Assembly (NCBI RefSeq): GCF_013343295.1
Contig: NZ_CP049074.1
Location: forward strand, 62,001-126,000
Length of the DNA stretch: 64,000 bases
Direction of reading: 5' to 3'
Source of the DNA: Metallosphaera tengchongensis
Lineage (GTDB): Archaea > Thermoproteota > Thermoprotei_A > Sulfolobales > Sulfolobaceae
A model generated the notes under the pieces. That model did not search any database, had not been told where the DNA came from, and saw nothing but the letters and a program-made list of their open reading frames with translations. A program made the translations under genes and the position numbers. Below are positions 53,894 through 59,957 of this stretch, in pieces; within the stretch, counting starts at the first letter, position 1; each line of letters opens with the position of its first letter.

Positions 53894-54340
53894 TCATGAA
53901 AATGCAGTCTCGTTTGGGAGCAGCGTAGCGAAGACGCTGACGTTATATCCAGATATTTGAACCAGGATTGTCTCGTTCCAGACGTATTCAGGAAGGGAGA
54001 AATTGTATGTCAACGGCAAGGGGATGTGTTGTTGGGCTGATTGTATTGGTCTAACTGACGATGATATATTTACCCAAGGGCCTTTTCCTAGGAAGTAAAC
54101 TGCGTCCAAGGTGTAGTTTCCCCCTCCTCTTAAAACTAGGAGTTCCGGCTTTGAAGGAGACGCGTTGTAGAAAAGGAGGATCGACCCTCCGTTTATCTGC
54201 CTTTGAAGAACAGAAGTTGTGTCAAGCGATTTTACGGAGGGTTCAGAAACGTTAATCATGAACAGAAATAGAGGTATTATCACTACTATTATCAGTATGA
54301 CTGCAATCAGGAATGTTATAAATTCTGACTGGCCCTTCAA
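53894..54340 (-). CDS. Type IV pilin-like secreted protein
   Basis: 148 residues. MKG-QSEFITFLIAVILIIVVIIPLFLF is a class III signal peptide: a short basic leader, Gly before the cut site of the prepilin peptidase PibD, then the hydrophobic helix that forms the pilus core. The rest is a small beta-domain (ILLFYNASPSKPELLVLRGG, VWNETILVQISGYNVSVFAT) with potential N-glycosylation sites. TTG start, supported by GGGGTGA just upstream. Last gene of a four-gene operon of pilin-like proteins. Not recognised as a known Ups, Aap or archaellum subunit. Confidence 0.7.
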   Translation of the reverse strand: MKGQSEFITFLIAVILIIVVIIPLFLFMINVSEPSVKSLDTTSVLQRQINGGSILLFYNASPSKPELLVLRGGGNYTLDAVYFLGKGPWVNISSSVRPIQSAQQHIPLPLTYNFSLPEYVWNETILVQISGYNVSVFATLLPNETAFS

Positions 54341-54352
54341 CTTTAGTCACCC

Positions 54353-55837
54353 CTAAAACTGATCATAACCATATTCATAGACATATTCTACTGTAATATT
54401 AGTAAAATCATTTATCGTTACTACTAAGTTATTAGACTTGGTGCCGTTGACCAAGAATATATAAGGATTCCAACTTATATTATTGAATAATTGTAAGTTT
54501 GAGTTATTATATATTACAAGGAAGGGGCCTCTTAATACATTTCCCGTACCTCCTATTGAATAAGTACCGTTGACTACCCAATAGTATTCGTTGTAATTAT
54601 ATAGCGACGAATTCAAAAATAATACATCAGAAGAAGGGGAAAGAGGATATACTTGACGACCAGGGATTATATAATCACCAATGAATCCTTTAACATAATA
54701 GATTGCTGTAACATTTGGCATATATCCATTATTATATACTGAATAACCGATGTAAATTTTCACATAATTAAAATTATTAATATAATTAATATTTAATGAG
54801 GAATTTGATAACGAGAATAATATGAAGCTGGTAACATCGTACTTGTTACTACCAAAACTCGAATAGTCGTACGAGTAATGATATATTATATTTTGGTTGC
54901 TTCCGGAGTAGTTGAACTGGAGGGTCTTTAGGGAAACGTTGATGTATCCTGCAGGGACTGTGACGTTTATCGTGTTATCGAAATTGTAAGGCCTTCCATC
55001 AACGAGCACACAGATGTTATTAGTAGATGGGTGGACCTTTAGAGAAATCGTGATTATCTTGGTGACTGGAGTGTAGTTAGCCTCTAGCACAGTGGACGTC
55101 CCCTCCAACGTAACTCTAACGTCAGTTGAATTGGTCGAATTCAGGCTGGCTGTTCCGAGCACTATCCAGTTCCTGAATACCCCTGTCACAACGGAACCGT
55201 TAGGTCTTTCGTAGAACACGTATTGAGGGGCTTTCACCACGAAAGTCCCCGTGTAGTTGGGGAACGAAACTGGGGTTGTGAAATTTTCAAATTTACCATA
55301 AATATTGGTGGAGATGTTCGTTGACACTGACAGAGGAGGACTACCATATATCTGTGTCACAACTGTAAACCCACCCTTTGAGGAGAGGGAGTACGGACCG
55401 ATGGACGACTTAGGCGTCAAGAAGAAGACGTTCCCTAGAGAAGTCACTATTATGATTGGGTGTCCCTGGACGTAGCCAGGGAGAGAGAGGTTGAAGAACC
55501 TTGATACTTCAAGGGGGTAATGGATCTGAGTCACGTTCTGCCAAATTGACCCATTGAGGAAAAGTATATGGGTAATTGTTAGGTTGGTTGGGGGCACGAA
55601 GGTACCGTTGGTATAGTAGAAGAGGATGGAAGAATTCGCGTAGAAAATAGCAGGGTGTCCCTCCTGAACTTGCTTGACTTGGAGGGACTTAAGGTAAATG
55701 TAATTGTTCACCAGGGCGCTTTGGGTGGTAGCAGCCTGCTGGGAGTTTGAGACGTAAAGGAGGGCAGGAACGGCTATTACTAGGACAACGACAATCAGGA
55801 TAAGCAGAGCGATAGCGTTGGATATACCTTTCCTCAT
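54353..55837 (-). CDS. Large pilin-like surface protein (paralogue of the next gene upstream)
   Basis: 494 residues from the ATG at 55837, whose ATGA overlaps the stop of the preceding gene. MRKG-ISNAIALLILIVVVLVIAVPALLYV is a class III signal peptide. A beta-rich domain follows, then the block PQYVFYERPNGSVV...GVFRNWIVLGTASLNSTNS shared with the 55834-57438 protein, and a Tyr/Asn/Ser-rich C-terminal domain (about residues 300-494). It has many N-x-S/T sites. The C-terminal third of the gene is visibly richer in A+T (AAT, ATA, TAT codons) than the first part. It may be an adhesin-like pilus tip or thread protein. Function not known. Confidence 0.68.
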   Translation of the reverse strand: MRKGISNAIALLILIVVVLVIAVPALLYVSNSQQAATTQSALVNNYIYLKSLQVKQVQEGHPAIFYANSSILFYYTNGTFVPPTNLTITHILFLNGSIWQNVTQIHYPLEVSRFFNLSLPGYVQGHPIIIVTSLGNVFFLTPKSSIGPYSLSSKGGFTVVTQIYGSPPLSVSTNISTNIYGKFENFTTPVSFPNYTGTFVVKAPQYVFYERPNGSVVTGVFRNWIVLGTASLNSTNSTDVRVTLEGTSTVLEANYTPVTKIITISLKVHPSTNNICVLVDGRPYNFDNTINVTVPAGYINVSLKTLQFNYSGSNQNIIYHYSYDYSSFGSNKYDVTSFILFSLSNSSLNINYINNFNYVKIYIGYSVYNNGYMPNVTAIYYVKGFIGDYIIPGRQVYPLSPSSDVLFLNSSLYNYNEYYWVVNGTYSIGGTGNVLRGPFLVIYNNSNLQLFNNISWNPYIFLVNGTKSNNLVVTINDFTNITVEYVYEYGYDQF

Positions 55838-57438
55838 AAGACCACACCTTCGTATTCCCACTCTTCGTAAACTGTCAAGTACATAGGAGACTGAACTATG
55901 AAGTAGTAACCATTTCCATTTATAGTCGATGAAGGCTCTGCATAAGAACTAGTTACGTTATATATAGTGACATTAATGGGAGAGGATAGAATTGAAGAAT
56001 AAGATTGTGTATTTTGATTTATTGAAACTAAGGATTTATACGAAATTATAAAATTTCCATATTCAGTAACAAGATATTCATAGGTCAGGTCTAGTCCTGT
56101 GCCACTCTTAAAGTATAACCTCTCAAACCTGTTGTCCTGTGTAGGACCTACGACAAATGATTTGTTTACTTGTAGGAACTGACCCGCGAAATCGCCTAAA
56201 ACACTCTGATTATTTATATTATAGCCAGCGGGCAAAAAGAAAGAATTGTTCACTAGCATACCGTAGTAAGTGGTTATGTTCTTGTACACACCGTACACGG
56301 TACCAGAGCCGTTTACGAACACTTCGTCTAGACCAATAGGTGTTATATTTGTAGTGGAAGCCCTGAGATTACTCAAGTTATAACAATTTATCTGGCCCGC
56401 TTCCATGAAGAAACTATTCGGAGTGTTTCCTTTACCACCTCCATGACTGTAACTGTAATTAAAACTGATATTATAGAGGTGAGGAAACTGGACTATGTGA
56501 TAACCGTAACTTAGATTCAGTGTAATGCCAGAAGAGTTCAGATAATATATTCTATTATCTATTTTTACAGGTATAGTCGCGTTCAGGGACGAAAGGGTAA
56601 GGGTATTGGATCTAACTTTAACAGAGGTAGTATTAGGCTCCAACGGGATATCCCACGGCTTGATGGTCACAGAATACTTAGCCACATCTCCCTTATAAAT
56701 TGCGGTAAGGACTACAGGCCCGCTCACGGTAACCACTGTTGAAAGTGCGTTTGTGGCTGAAAGAGTCCCATAACCCACAACCGACCAGTTCTGGAACACA
56801 CCGGTAATACCGTACTGTGACAAAAACACGTACTGGTTAACCTCGTCCACGGGGTAGTTCCCGGGCAATACGTCTATTAAGAAGGGAGTTGACTCAACAT
56901 TTCCTGCGAAGTTAACGGTAGTAGTTACTGGGTATATCTTGCTCCCGTTCTCTACGAAAGAGGCTACGTACACCGGAAACTTCCCAGACGGCCCTTGTAT
57001 ATTTACTGTGTCAACTGAAGTGTTAGGGTTTAGGAAGTATATGTTACCTTGCCCAGAGACCAACAGGACAGGCATATTGAAGCTCTTTGAGGGTAGAGGG
57101 AGGCTGGAGTCACCTGCAACCACGAGAGACCGGAGTGTAGGTACCCACTCCGAGCCATTAAAGTAGTAAATCCTTGTAATATTGAAAGGATACGGGGTAG
57201 AAGTAAACAGGAACTCCAGGTGAGGCTCGTACTCTGTGGAGTTGTAATAGATGTTGGGGTTTCCCCTGAAAACTTGGTTTATCTCATTACCTTGACCTTG
57301 AGAGTAAGCCGAGGCCTGCTGGGAGCCTTGGGAAGAGTAGACGCTCACTGACTGAAAGAGCAGGAAGGCTGGGACTATCACAGCTACCAAGAGTATAAAC
57401 ATCAAGACCATGAATACCGGTACGGAAATTGCCCTCAT
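55834..57438 (-). CDS. Large pilin-like surface protein
   Basis: 534 residues from the ATG at 57438, preceded by AGGTGG as ribosome binding site; a longer frame to 57495 lacks a signal-like start. MRA-ISVPVFMVLMFILLVAVIVPAFLLF is a class III signal peptide. The extracellular part has a domain ending in NQYVFLSQYGITGVFQNWSV followed by VGYGTLSATNA, which is shared with the protein encoded next. A long A+T-rich, Asn/Tyr/Ser-rich C-terminus follows (LSYGYHIVQFPHLYNISFNY onwards). Together they look like duplicated adhesins. Second gene of the operon, 1 bp after the first. Confidence 0.68.
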   Translation of the reverse strand: MRAISVPVFMVLMFILLVAVIVPAFLLFQSVSVYSSQGSQQASAYSQGQGNEINQVFRGNPNIYYNSTEYEPHLEFLFTSTPYPFNITRIYYFNGSEWVPTLRSLVVAGDSSLPLPSKSFNMPVLLVSGQGNIYFLNPNTSVDTVNIQGPSGKFPVYVASFVENGSKIYPVTTTVNFAGNVESTPFLIDVLPGNYPVDEVNQYVFLSQYGITGVFQNWSVVGYGTLSATNALSTVVTVSGPVVLTAIYKGDVAKYSVTIKPWDIPLEPNTTSVKVRSNTLTLSSLNATIPVKIDNRIYYLNSSGITLNLSYGYHIVQFPHLYNISFNYSYSHGGGKGNTPNSFFMEAGQINCYNLSNLRASTTNITPIGLDEVFVNGSGTVYGVYKNITTYYGMLVNNSFFLPAGYNINNQSVLGDFAGQFLQVNKSFVVGPTQDNRFERLYFKSGTGLDLTYEYLVTEYGNFIISYKSLVSINQNTQSYSSILSSPINVTIYNVTSSYAEPSSTINGNGYYFIVQSPMYLTVYEEWEYEGVVL

Positions 57439-57439
57439 T

Positions 57440-57997
57440 TCAACCACCTGAAGAGGGGACCCCAGTAAAAGTGAACCCGATCCTGAACAATTCACCTTGA
57501 CCGTACATTACCCAAATTATAACAATATCGTTGCTGTTGAAGTTATTCACAGATATTGTAAAGGGTTGATTGAACGGTACTGTGTAAACGTGCTCCGACC
57601 TCACCAATAGTCTCCCGTTGAGGTCGTATATGTTCCCAGACGTGAAGCTATAGGCAGGTTTCCCGTTGGGCAGGTAGACCTTAAAGTTAGGTGAGGTAGG
57701 AGGTGTGACTAGTCCAACTGACGTCTCGAAGCTCTGCGGTTCCACGAAAGCAAGGACCGACACGTTCCCAGAGACTCCTGGGTCGTAAACCTCCATCACC
57801 AGGCTACCTGTAGAGGAACTTCCTGATAGGACAGGACCCACGCTTAAGGTAGTCTGGGAAGCTATGTTATTTGCTGTCTGCTCCTCGGAGGATAAGACTA
57901 TCTGGGGGTATAGGTAGGAAACCGTAAAGCCTATAATGACCAGACCTAGGACTAACACCACGCTCACAAGGATTATCTCCTGTACAACGTTCTCCAT
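57440..57997 (-). CDS. Pilin-like secreted protein, first gene of the operon
   Basis: 185 residues. MENVVQEIILVSVVLVLGLVIIGFTVSYLY gives an N-terminal hydrophobic helix of the pilin kind, without an obvious Gly/Ala cut site and with an acidic leader. The beta-domain ends with NDIVIIWVMYGQGELFRIGFTF, which is similar to EIIVVWILTYENGHWYRLGYTY in the divergent protein at 58593, so the two share a module. A plausible pilus subunit or anchor. Three pilin-like genes follow without gaps. Confidence 0.66.
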   Translation of the reverse strand: MENVVQEIILVSVVLVLGLVIIGFTVSYLYPQIVLSSEEQTANNIASQTTLSVGPVLSGSSSTGSLVMEVYDPGVSGNVSVLAFVEPQSFETSVGLVTPPTSPNFKVYLPNGKPAYSFTSGNIYDLNGRLLVRSEHVYTVPFNQPFTISVNNFNSNDIVIIWVMYGQGELFRIGFTFTGVPSSGG

Positions 57998-58592
57998 TTC
58001 CTATTTCAAGAAATACTAATCCTAGCTTCTATATTAAACCTTCGCTAAAAATCACTAAAAATCGGCACGAGTGTTAAGGGATTTTAGGTAAAACACCAAT
58101 ATGGGGAAAAAAGTAAGATAACCAAAAACCTTACTTTATTAAGCTCATTTTAAATATATTATGGTGAATTCACAGCCAGTATGGACTTAGTAATGGACCA
58201 TTTAAGGATAATTTTCGCTGAATTACTCGTGCGTCAGTATAGATTTTGCGTCTGACTGCACTTTTTCATTTTAAAGCCATATGGGTCTTTCCTACCCCTA
58301 CTAATGGGATTTAGTATGAATCGGTTAACAGCAGGCCTTTAGACCGTCTCCTTAAACACCTCTAAAGTCCGCTACCGTGGAAAGCTCAGTAGCTATGGAT
58401 TGAGGACTGACCTTATCCCAGACACAGACGACGAGGTATGCTCTCATCTTATCACGAATCTCAACTACTCTACTTGCATGCTTAAACTACTAGACATTCC
58501 CAGTAACGTCGAAACAAAAGAGTGACAGATGTGGACATCATATCTTAATTCTGAATGAATATTTATATATCACTGTGTTTAAATAATTTTCA
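57998..58592. other. Intergenic region between the pilin-like transcription units
   Basis: Nearly 600 bp with promoters at both ends. On the plus strand 58341-58524 keeps an open frame without a start codon (about 60 codons, including RYRGKLSSYGLRTDLIPDTD and HLITNLNYSTCMLKLLDIPS), probably a gene fragment. The rest shows nothing recognisable. Confidence 0.4.
58562..58570 (+). promoter_or_regulatory. TATA box of the divergent pilin-like gene
   Basis: TTTATATAT lies 23-31 bp before the ATG at 58593, the distance expected for a leaderless transcript. Confidence 0.5.
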
Positions 58593-59957
58593 ATGCCTTC
58601 AGTAGTTACTACGTTCCTAGTGGTCATTGTAGCCCTCATGTTGAGTATAGGAGCTTTCGGTCTTTACGCAACCTATTTCTCAGGCCAAGCGTCATCCCTT
58701 CAACAGCAGAGCTTAATTACTGCTCAAGCTAAGGAGGTCCAGACTTTCGTATCACCAATATCCTTTTCGGGCTTAGCCCCTTCATACACGAGGTTCAATG
58801 TCTCCTTCCTCTTCTGGTACTCAGCCCCTGTGAAGAACGTGTACATTGTGCCGTTCGTGATCAGACCTCTTCCAGGACTAGGGACTTTTCTTTACGCTCC
58901 TCAAGGGGCACAGAACGCAACAGTTTTCGTGAATAGCTCGGGGAAGATACAGGTACCGCCCTCCGTTACCCTGAATACTGTCTACACGGTCCAGGGGAAC
59001 CAACTGTCTAGCCCAAGTGGGTTTAAAGCATACCAAGTTGCACCCACAGGAACTTACCAGGTCAATTCCACGATCTACCCGGGAGAGATCATAGTAGTTT
59101 GGATACTGACCTATGAGAACGGTCATTGGTACAGGCTAGGCTATACCTATGTGAACCCAGCTGACGCAGGTTTGGGACTTTATGTAGTAAGTCAGACTGG
59201 AAATTTTAACGGAAATAGCAAAAAAATAACTAATCCTCCTCATACTTTTACCAGTCAAGGTGGTATCCAAGAGGGGTTCTGGTTTGAACCTATTGCCAAT
59301 ACTTCTATAAATTCTATTATATTTCAGGAAAATTTGACCAGAGTCGGTAATGGTAATAATTATACAATAACTATTTACCAGAATGGATTAAAATTATACT
59401 TTAATGTTTCAACGTCCAGTGGTTCGGCCTCCACAACGAACTCAAGCTTCATAGCGGACTTGAATGTTGGGGAGGAGTACTTCCTTAATTTCTCTTACGG
59501 TTCGCTATTACAATCAGCTGGAAATATTAATGTTACTTTATATAATCAAACTGACAAAATTAATACTAAACTAATAGGGTTTGGTGGTACACATAATGGA
59601 TATAACGTTACAGTGAAGTTCGGAAGTAGCTCTACAACCGATCTTATCTCCCAAGCCTTCCTTACTAGTGAACAGAATAATAACCCCAATACGGTCGCGC
59701 AGTTTTACAATGTATCGACGCAGGTCTGGAAAAACGGTTATTTCTATAACAATACAAACAATCTATACAATATTATAAGTTCACCTTCAAACTCATTATA
59801 TGATATTGTTTACTGGTATTTTGTATATCCCTCCTCTGCCCCTCCAACCACGATTAATGCGATCGTGTGGTACTACCCATCTGGGGGATCGTCCTCAAAT
59901 TCGAACCTAACTACAACATACGTACCTGAGTCGGGTCAGAACACATGGATTATATGA
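58593..59957 (+). CDS. Pilin-like surface protein with a large, lectin-like C-terminal domain
   Basis: 454 residues. MPSVVTTFLVVIVALMLSIGAFGLYATYF is a pilin-like N-terminal helix. Residues 30-195 form the module shared with the 57440-57997 protein (ends EIIVVWILTYENGHWYRLGY). From about residue 205 a new domain begins, IQEGFWFEPIANTSINSIIF then QENLTRVGNGNNYTITIYQN, with the strand pattern of concanavalin/LamG-like lectins (inference). The C-terminal half is A+T-rich and loaded with N-x-S/T sites. It is the only pilin-like gene on this strand and faces away from the operon. It may present the adhesive end of the fibre. Confidence 0.66.
   Translation: MPSVVTTFLVVIVALMLSIGAFGLYATYFSGQASSLQQQSLITAQAKEVQTFVSPISFSGLAPSYTRFNVSFLFWYSAPVKNVYIVPFVIRPLPGLGTFLYAPQGAQNATVFVNSSGKIQVPPSVTLNTVYTVQGNQLSSPSGFKAYQVAPTGTYQVNSTIYPGEIIVVWILTYENGHWYRLGYTYVNPADAGLGLYVVSQTGNFNGNSKKITNPPHTFTSQGGIQEGFWFEPIANTSINSIIFQENLTRVGNGNNYTITIYQNGLKLYFNVSTSSGSASTTNSSFIADLNVGEEYFLNFSYGSLLQSAGNINVTLYNQTDKINTKLIGFGGTHNGYNVTVKFGSSSTTDLISQAFLTSEQNNNPNTVAQFYNVSTQVWKNGYFYNNTNNLYNIISSPSNSLYDIVYWYFVYPSSAPPTTINAIVWYYPSGGSSSNSNLTTTYVPESGQNTWII

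Follow-up and report, generated by a model that had tools for sequence, protein, structure and literature searches.

What do five pilin-like genes do in an archaeon when no machine for building a pilus is encoded beside them? The question is raised by a cluster in Metallosphaera tengchongensis (Sulfolobaceae), at positions 53894 to 59957 of the window, by which we mean the whole 64,000-nucleotide stretch of DNA analysed (contig NZ_CP049074.1, positions 62,001 to 126,000 of the forward strand). The source genome has 2,176,897 bases in one contig, and its closest relatives are Metallosphaera species. An earlier note on this DNA had read the cluster as a pilin-like surface system of five proteins. 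All five open reading frames (ORFs) are confirmed, with P4-P3-P2-P1 in that order on the minus strand and P5 divergent on the plus strand, but they are more aptly seen as two families, each made up of core and extended members. At the level of sequence, the two families, the class III signal sites of P1-P3, the lack of a local machine, the interchange of ectodomains and the load of glycosylation sequons on presumably exposed members are well documented. The explanation we favour, with about an even chance of being right, is that the locus encodes Sulfolobaceae-specific modular minor pilins, which would be assembled by a type IV pilus machine encoded elsewhere, sit in low copy at the filament tip, and bind surfaces, glycans or cells. 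The genes and their parts are as follows.

P1, 53894..54340, minus strand: short pilin of 148 amino acids (aa) of the P1/P2/P3 family, with a TTG start, a KG|QSEFI class III site and the conserved proline at mature position 20.
P2, 54353..55837, minus strand: extended pilin of the P1/P2/P3 family, with an MRKG|IS start at 55837 (the ORF opens at 55861); a pilin stem and head are followed by a beta-rich C-terminal region of ~340 aa, where GC falls from 0.47 to 0.30.
P3, 55834..57438, minus strand: extended pilin with an MRA|ISV start at 57438 (the ORF opens at 57495); a pilin head is followed by more beta domains.
P3 Ig/CnaB-like module, 56683..56985, minus strand: residues ~152-252 of a low-confidence model.
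P4, 57440..57997, minus strand: core member of the P4/P5 family, 185 aa, lacking a class III site, with an ArlG-like N-terminus and nearly free of sequons.
P4-P5 divergent intergenic region, 57998..58592: 595 bp, with a TATA-like stretch at 58560-58569.
P5, 58593..59957, plus strand: extended member of the P4/P5 family, 454 aa, with an uncharged N-terminal helix, an Ig-like head and a jelly-roll C-terminal module.
P5 C-terminal module, 59256..59954, plus strand: residues ~222-454, a concanavalin/galectin/LamG-like jelly roll in the predicted model.

Judged by sequence, the set falls into two pilin families that are unrelated to each other. In one, P1 is short and P2 and P3 are extended; in the other, P4 is short and P5 extended. 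In profile comparison, P1, P2 and P3 are paralogues, heads included (P2-P3 heads 99.5%, P1-P2 heads 92%), as are P4 and P5 (heads 98.5%), and no relationship is detectable between the two families. They also differ at the N-terminus. A class III signal site, consisting of a basic residue, a small residue and a hydrophobic helix of ~20 residues, is present in 26/27 distinct P1 sequences, 23/23 of P2 and 24/24 of P3, and almost all of these proteins carry a proline at mature position 20 (22 if the site is called two residues earlier). Such a site was sought in the window's own P4 and P5 and none is present, their N-termini being uncharged; across the P4 sequences a loose pattern finds it in 1/36. 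An adjacent basic residue is present at the N-terminus in 0/41 P4, 5/28 P5, 0/8 ArlG and 1/8 ArlF sequences. An automatic class III count for P5 (12/25) was discarded because its motifs were spurious. The view that all five proteins are prepilin-like thus stands for P1, P2 and P3 but not for P4 and P5, which appear pilin-like by helix and paralogy only.

The P2 N-terminus matches TIGR02537, the archaellin/pilin N-terminus, at 21.0 bits against a cut-off of 20, and the P4 profile weakly matches the solved archaeal pilins 6w8x, 8fjs and 6nav in the PDB (E 0.002-0.007). No Pfam family scored above its cut-off for the proteins, PHROGs gave no match, and phmmer with P5 and profiles of P5 and of P3/P2 retrieved no relevant match from the PDB. 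VIA-align listed no other pilin heads for P5, an absence that is not evidence.

The starts of P1-P3 were set at the class III sites conserved in relatives, and with these starts the spacings along P4-P3-P2-P1 are 1, -4 and 12 bases: P3 begins 1 nt past the P4 stop, P2 and P3 share a 4-nt ATGA overlap, and P1 follows 12 nt past P2. This arrangement fits the expectation for a translationally coupled operon. The four genes, which the earlier note called overlapping, are therefore tightly packed but not deeply overlapping, with a single 4-nt overlap among them. The P5 transcript is probably leaderless, since the TATA-like stretch lies ~28 nt upstream of its ATG; a sigma-70 promoter scan of the locus used a model that is uninformative for archaea. 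The divergent intergenic DNA, 595 bp here, measures ~55 bp in Saccharolobus-like genomes.

The earlier note had proposed looking for the five-gene set across Sulfolobales, and protein searches of the order show it to be essentially confined to one family, where neighbourhood reading places orthologues of all five together in 25/31 Sulfolobaceae genomes. P4 is the best conserved marker of the locus, its profile matching 31/31 Sulfolobaceae genomes in 11 genera and only 2/183 other genomes of the order, both weakly; the P3/P2 profile also finds a match in 31/31. The contig scan used a narrower family alignment, the first family-wide alignment having been too diverse. Because the five genes stay together while their flanks vary between genera, an association far beyond chance, they form a functional unit. 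Departures from the usual arrangement include G117, in which P4 lies ~20 kb from the rest, two Sulfolobus-genus genomes with a re-oriented P4, G114, where the set spans contig ends, and a few genomes with broken P2 or P3 genes. Divergent variants occur in G050, G066, G126 and G127, while the assembly of G128 is incomplete and only a distant pair is present in G059. No P4 relative was found in viral contigs or plasmids, so there is no sign that the set is viral or plasmid cargo.

Several variations on the locus were seen along the way. S. acidocaldarius (G042, a name inferred from its aap, ups and arl loci) has a P3 interrupted by the loss of one base, as comparison with its close relative G032 shows (L065 10156-11840 and L064 9400-11082, respectively), with P1, P2, P4 and P5 intact; a phase-variable tract is not supported, as the change involves one base in a short C run only. 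In M. javensis (L061 8405-10876), many frameshifting indels have disrupted P3 and P2 but left P4, P5 and P1 intact; G011 also carries broken P2 genes. A second type of locus, with a P4-like gene beside a P3-like gene for 600-750 aa, is present in several genera (L065 5540-7872; L070 5864-8270; L073 4856-7339; L102, L105, L107, L108 and L109); this paralogous pair adjoins the cluster in S. acidocaldarius and lies elsewhere in several genera. In Sulfolobales archaeon Acd1, P4 stands alone (L089 8986-9543 / L091 7665-8222), ~20 kb from P5-P3-P2-P1, and adjoins a gene that by eye resembles a molybdopterin oxidoreductase.

The modular character of the extended members is clearest in relatives of the window proteins. 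An ectodomain of ~600 residues is carried by a P3-type stem in two genomes (L066, L067) and by a P5-type stem in a third (L069), the P3-type version in G050 (residues 139-732) being 45% identical (E 4e-155) to the P5-type version in G096 (residues 190-793). Since one and the same ectodomain occurs on both types of stem, ectodomain modules are evidently exchanged between stems of different pilin families. Base composition also sets the modules apart: the module regions of P2, P3 and P5 are lower in GC than the stems, the drop at third codon positions (GC3) being strongest in P2 and P3. The fall is repeated in the Metallosphaera species tested and was not seen in 21 other window genes. Within the window, sharp GC drops lie at 54353-54900 (P2), 55900-56300 (P3) and 59200-59900 (P5). 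A protein of ~500 aa adjoins the large P3/P5-type proteins in three genomes (L066 5452-6960; L067 11123-12637; L069 13618-15123); it carries a hydrophobic signal at the N-terminus and a hydrophobic segment at the C-terminus, is 33-51% identical among the three, and has no counterpart in the window cluster.

What these modules might do is suggested by AlphaFold models, which are of low confidence (mean pLDDT 59). In the P5 model, a long helix and a beta head occupy residues 1-190. Residues 222-454 fold as a jelly roll, whose matches include galectins, LamG domains and glucanases (Z 8.6-9.8); block pLDDT in that region is 31-83. Foldseek relates the P5 model to neurexin LNS and CBM40 domains (E about 0.005), and it also aligns with PilC of Streptococcus sanguinis (7oa8) at Z 9.1, over 202 residues with an rmsd of 8.2. 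The C-terminal module of P5 is thus predicted to be a galectin/concanavalin-like jelly roll. For P3, the head model resembles the Pyrobaculum pilin 6w8u (Z 6.2), and residues ~152-252 resemble CnaB-like modules (Z 8.4; rmsd 1.8 over 78 residues to the minor pilin GBS52, 3phs).

Glycosylation sequons separate the proteins in another way. P1, P2, P3 and P5 carry 3.5-5.4 N-glycosylation sequons per 100 residues, compared with 0.47 in 21 other window ORFs, so the description of the ectodomains as glycosylation-rich fits these four but not P4, which has one sequon only. Averaged over orthologues, the values are 2.8-4.4 for the four and 0.87 for P4. The heavy load would then sit on the presumably exposed members, and P4, given the scarcity of its sequons, may be shielded inside a complex.

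The closest parallel to this architecture is bacterial. In S. sanguinis, PilA, PilB and PilC likewise include pilin stems with grafted ectodomains and a short non-modular partner, as P2, P3 and P5 are extended relative to P1 and P4 and one ectodomain occurs on two stem types. PilC is a lectin-bearing minor pilin in which a concanavalin-like module comes after an Ig-like one; it binds glycans, and a position at the tip has been proposed for it (PMC9934059). A survey of modular pilins exists for bacteria (PMC8179133). Unlike the S. sanguinis proteins, P1-P5 are archaeal, with no sequence relationship shown, P5 lacks a class III site, and the genes are far from any pilus machine.

Among archaeal systems, the designation of the set as unassigned has held: a search for strong similarity to Ups, Aap, Bas or thread loci, which the earlier note said would count against it, gave nothing outside the N-terminal helix. 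Helix-free profile comparison of the P1-P5 heads with AapA/B, UpsA/B and ArlF/G gave no sequence relationship (for P4/P5 against ArlF/G, a probability of 1% or less). The Aap pilus (AapA, AapB, AapE, AapF, AapX) is made by the same cells and offers a plausible machine, and the P4 profile weakly reaches solved Sulfolobales pilins, but the cluster lies outside aap and its heads are unrelated to AapA and AapB (below 1%), which lack the proline. This Pro20 kink is common to P1-P3 and UpsB (15/15) and is not found in UpsA, AapA/B, ArlF/G or Bas-type pilins. UpsB further shares the class III site and helix similarity with P1-P3, but its ectodomain is unrelated by sequence, no extended members of UpsB were seen, and its locus is different. 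Four loci (L162-L165) that we take to be Bas (bindosome) loci encode pilins that weakly match the P1-P3 profiles (best 1e-8) and lack Pro20, and the window cluster is not beside a Bas-type ATPase.

The 2016 pili census treats Sulfolobales pili as very simple systems, approximated by three components: an ATPase, a platform protein and pilins of the PilA type (PMC4858521). The set is not described in what is available of the main text of that census or of the 2014 'dark matter' paper. Our search found no paper on these genes, those of S. acidocaldarius and M. sedula included; subscription journals and supplements fell outside it. The set would work as modular minor pilins do, and we assign it to no named system.

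Which machine, then, could assemble such proteins? The observation that no pilus ATPase or platform gene lies beside the cluster is borne out, as the PF00437 matches of the genome are hundreds of kb away and none was found in the fetched cluster flanks of relatives. The suggestion of a machine encoded elsewhere fits well with this, with the predicted jelly roll of P5 and with the module swap: the source genome encodes AapE/AapF (L077), UpsE/UpsF/UpsA/UpsB (L078) and one PibD-type peptidase, all away from the cluster, and its AapB-like pilins are likewise encoded apart from AapE/F. The archaellum ATPase ArlI was sought there and is absent, only the Aap and Ups machines being present. AapB homologues provide an earlier case of pilin genes lying apart from those of their machine (PMC11178815), and archaea are described as commonly having lone pilin genes that depend on a machine at a distance (PMC4858521). 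We consider AapE/AapF the most likely machine, with moderate confidence, because AapE is present in 30/31 genomes (the exception being an 87% complete assembly) and because G011 has the cluster with AapE but without UpsE or ArlI. For comparison, UpsE was found in ~28 genomes and ArlI in about half; ATPase classes were assigned by similarity where the sequence was fetched and otherwise by frame length. In S. acidocaldarius (G042), aap is at 2.16 Mb and the cluster at 1.44 Mb. Some Metallosphaera and other Sulfolobaceae genomes, the source genome not among them, also have an extra type IV pilus locus (L156-L161), which encodes several pilins together with an ATPase whose distances from AapE, UpsE and ArlI are about equal.

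On the explanation we favour, P1-P3 would be cleaved by PibD, and P4 and P5, uncharged and probably left uncleaved, would serve as an adaptor or anchor pair. All five might join in a complex of low copy number that the Aap machine AapE/AapF presents and that acts at the tip as the adhesin of the twitching pilus, with bulky, glycosylated, interchangeable modules that may attach to surfaces or glycans. What the Aap tip is made of has been stated to be unresolved (PMC11178785). Several points weigh against this explanation. There is no direct link of P1-P5 to any filament; the lectin-like P5 has no class III site, which makes it doubtful that this protein polymerises in a pilus; and jelly-roll scores near Z 9 are just modestly above background in models of such low confidence. 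AapE is near universal, so its co-occurrence with the cluster discriminates weakly and the case rests mainly on one draft genome without UpsE. S. acidocaldarius also twitches (PMC11178785) though its P3 is frameshifted in the genome examined. A more specific arrangement, which we rate as rather unlikely, is a dedicated and previously unrecognised tip complex in which an ArlG/ArlF-like uncleaved P4/P5 pair with a lectin-like cap, outside the archaellum, carries the UpsB-like modular P1-P3.

The same likeness to ArlG/ArlF, the archaellum stator, allows the locus to work at the base of a filament rather than its tip, with P4/P5 as a second S-layer anchor of that kind: P4 would form a short periplasmic filament and P5 a cap whose jelly roll grips S-layer glycans and so holds a pilus base or P1-P3 in the envelope. 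P4, P5, ArlG and ArlF all have an uncharged N-terminus, P4 aligns with ArlG at an hhalign probability of 83.5% over 75 columns, and P4/P5 are a paralogue pair, as are ArlG and ArlF (PMC8667602). We nevertheless think this unlikely, as the likeness is driven by the helix, the heads having no sequence homology, and P1-P3 would need another role. ArlFG has been described as exclusive to the archaellum (PMC8667602). The source genome has no archaellum ATPase.

Alternatively, P1-P5 might never polymerise, and instead be membrane-anchored adhesins or receptors that use the pilin-type N-terminal helix as an anchor and form a hetero-complex in the envelope. No machine lies nearby in any genome, P4 and P5 lack the class III site, and ectodomains of up to ~600 residues are bulky for a shaft. 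We judge this to be improbable as well, since class III sites and Pro20 are kept in nearly all P1-P3 orthologues and would be needless for a simple anchor, and the distant machines of other stand-alone archaeal pilins make the absence of a local one less telling.

A role in mating is also conceivable, with the set assembled by the UV-inducible UpsE/UpsF as species-recognition modules for mating aggregates. UpsE/F are present in the source genome, the P1-P3 stems are most like UpsB, sharing Pro20 and aligning at hhalign probabilities of 55-90%, mostly over the helix, and Ups pili take part in recognition between cells of one species (PMC7064770). Against this, G011 has the cluster without UpsE, the heads are unrelated to UpsA/UpsB, and the genes lie outside the ups operon, which leaves Ups assembly with little probability.

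The proposal that the proteins form threads by themselves through donor-strand exchange, for which the sequon-dense, beta-rich ectodomains and the lack of a local machine might speak, is very improbable because thread subunits such as Saci_0406, itself a glycosylated beta-rich surface protein from the same family of archaea with a donor-strand chain and a different locus, carry a signal for Sec/signal peptidase I and do not depend on PibD (PMC9715654), whereas P1-P3 have class III pilin stems and no solved thread chain appeared in the profile searches.

If the explanation we favour is correct, the locus would be a candidate for the missing adhesive end of the Aap pilus, and its part in attachment and twitching could be tested by one deletion. 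Pilin stems with grafted binding modules, which are known from bacteria (PMC8179133), would then have arisen in archaea too. Should the dedicated tip complex exist, it would include the first ArlFG-like pair outside the archaellum, and the twitching pilus would be a configurable gripper, which the machine would equip with adhesive modules that can be interchanged. Candidate uses for the Sulfolobaceae may include mineral attachment, biofilm formation, mate recognition and virus entry.

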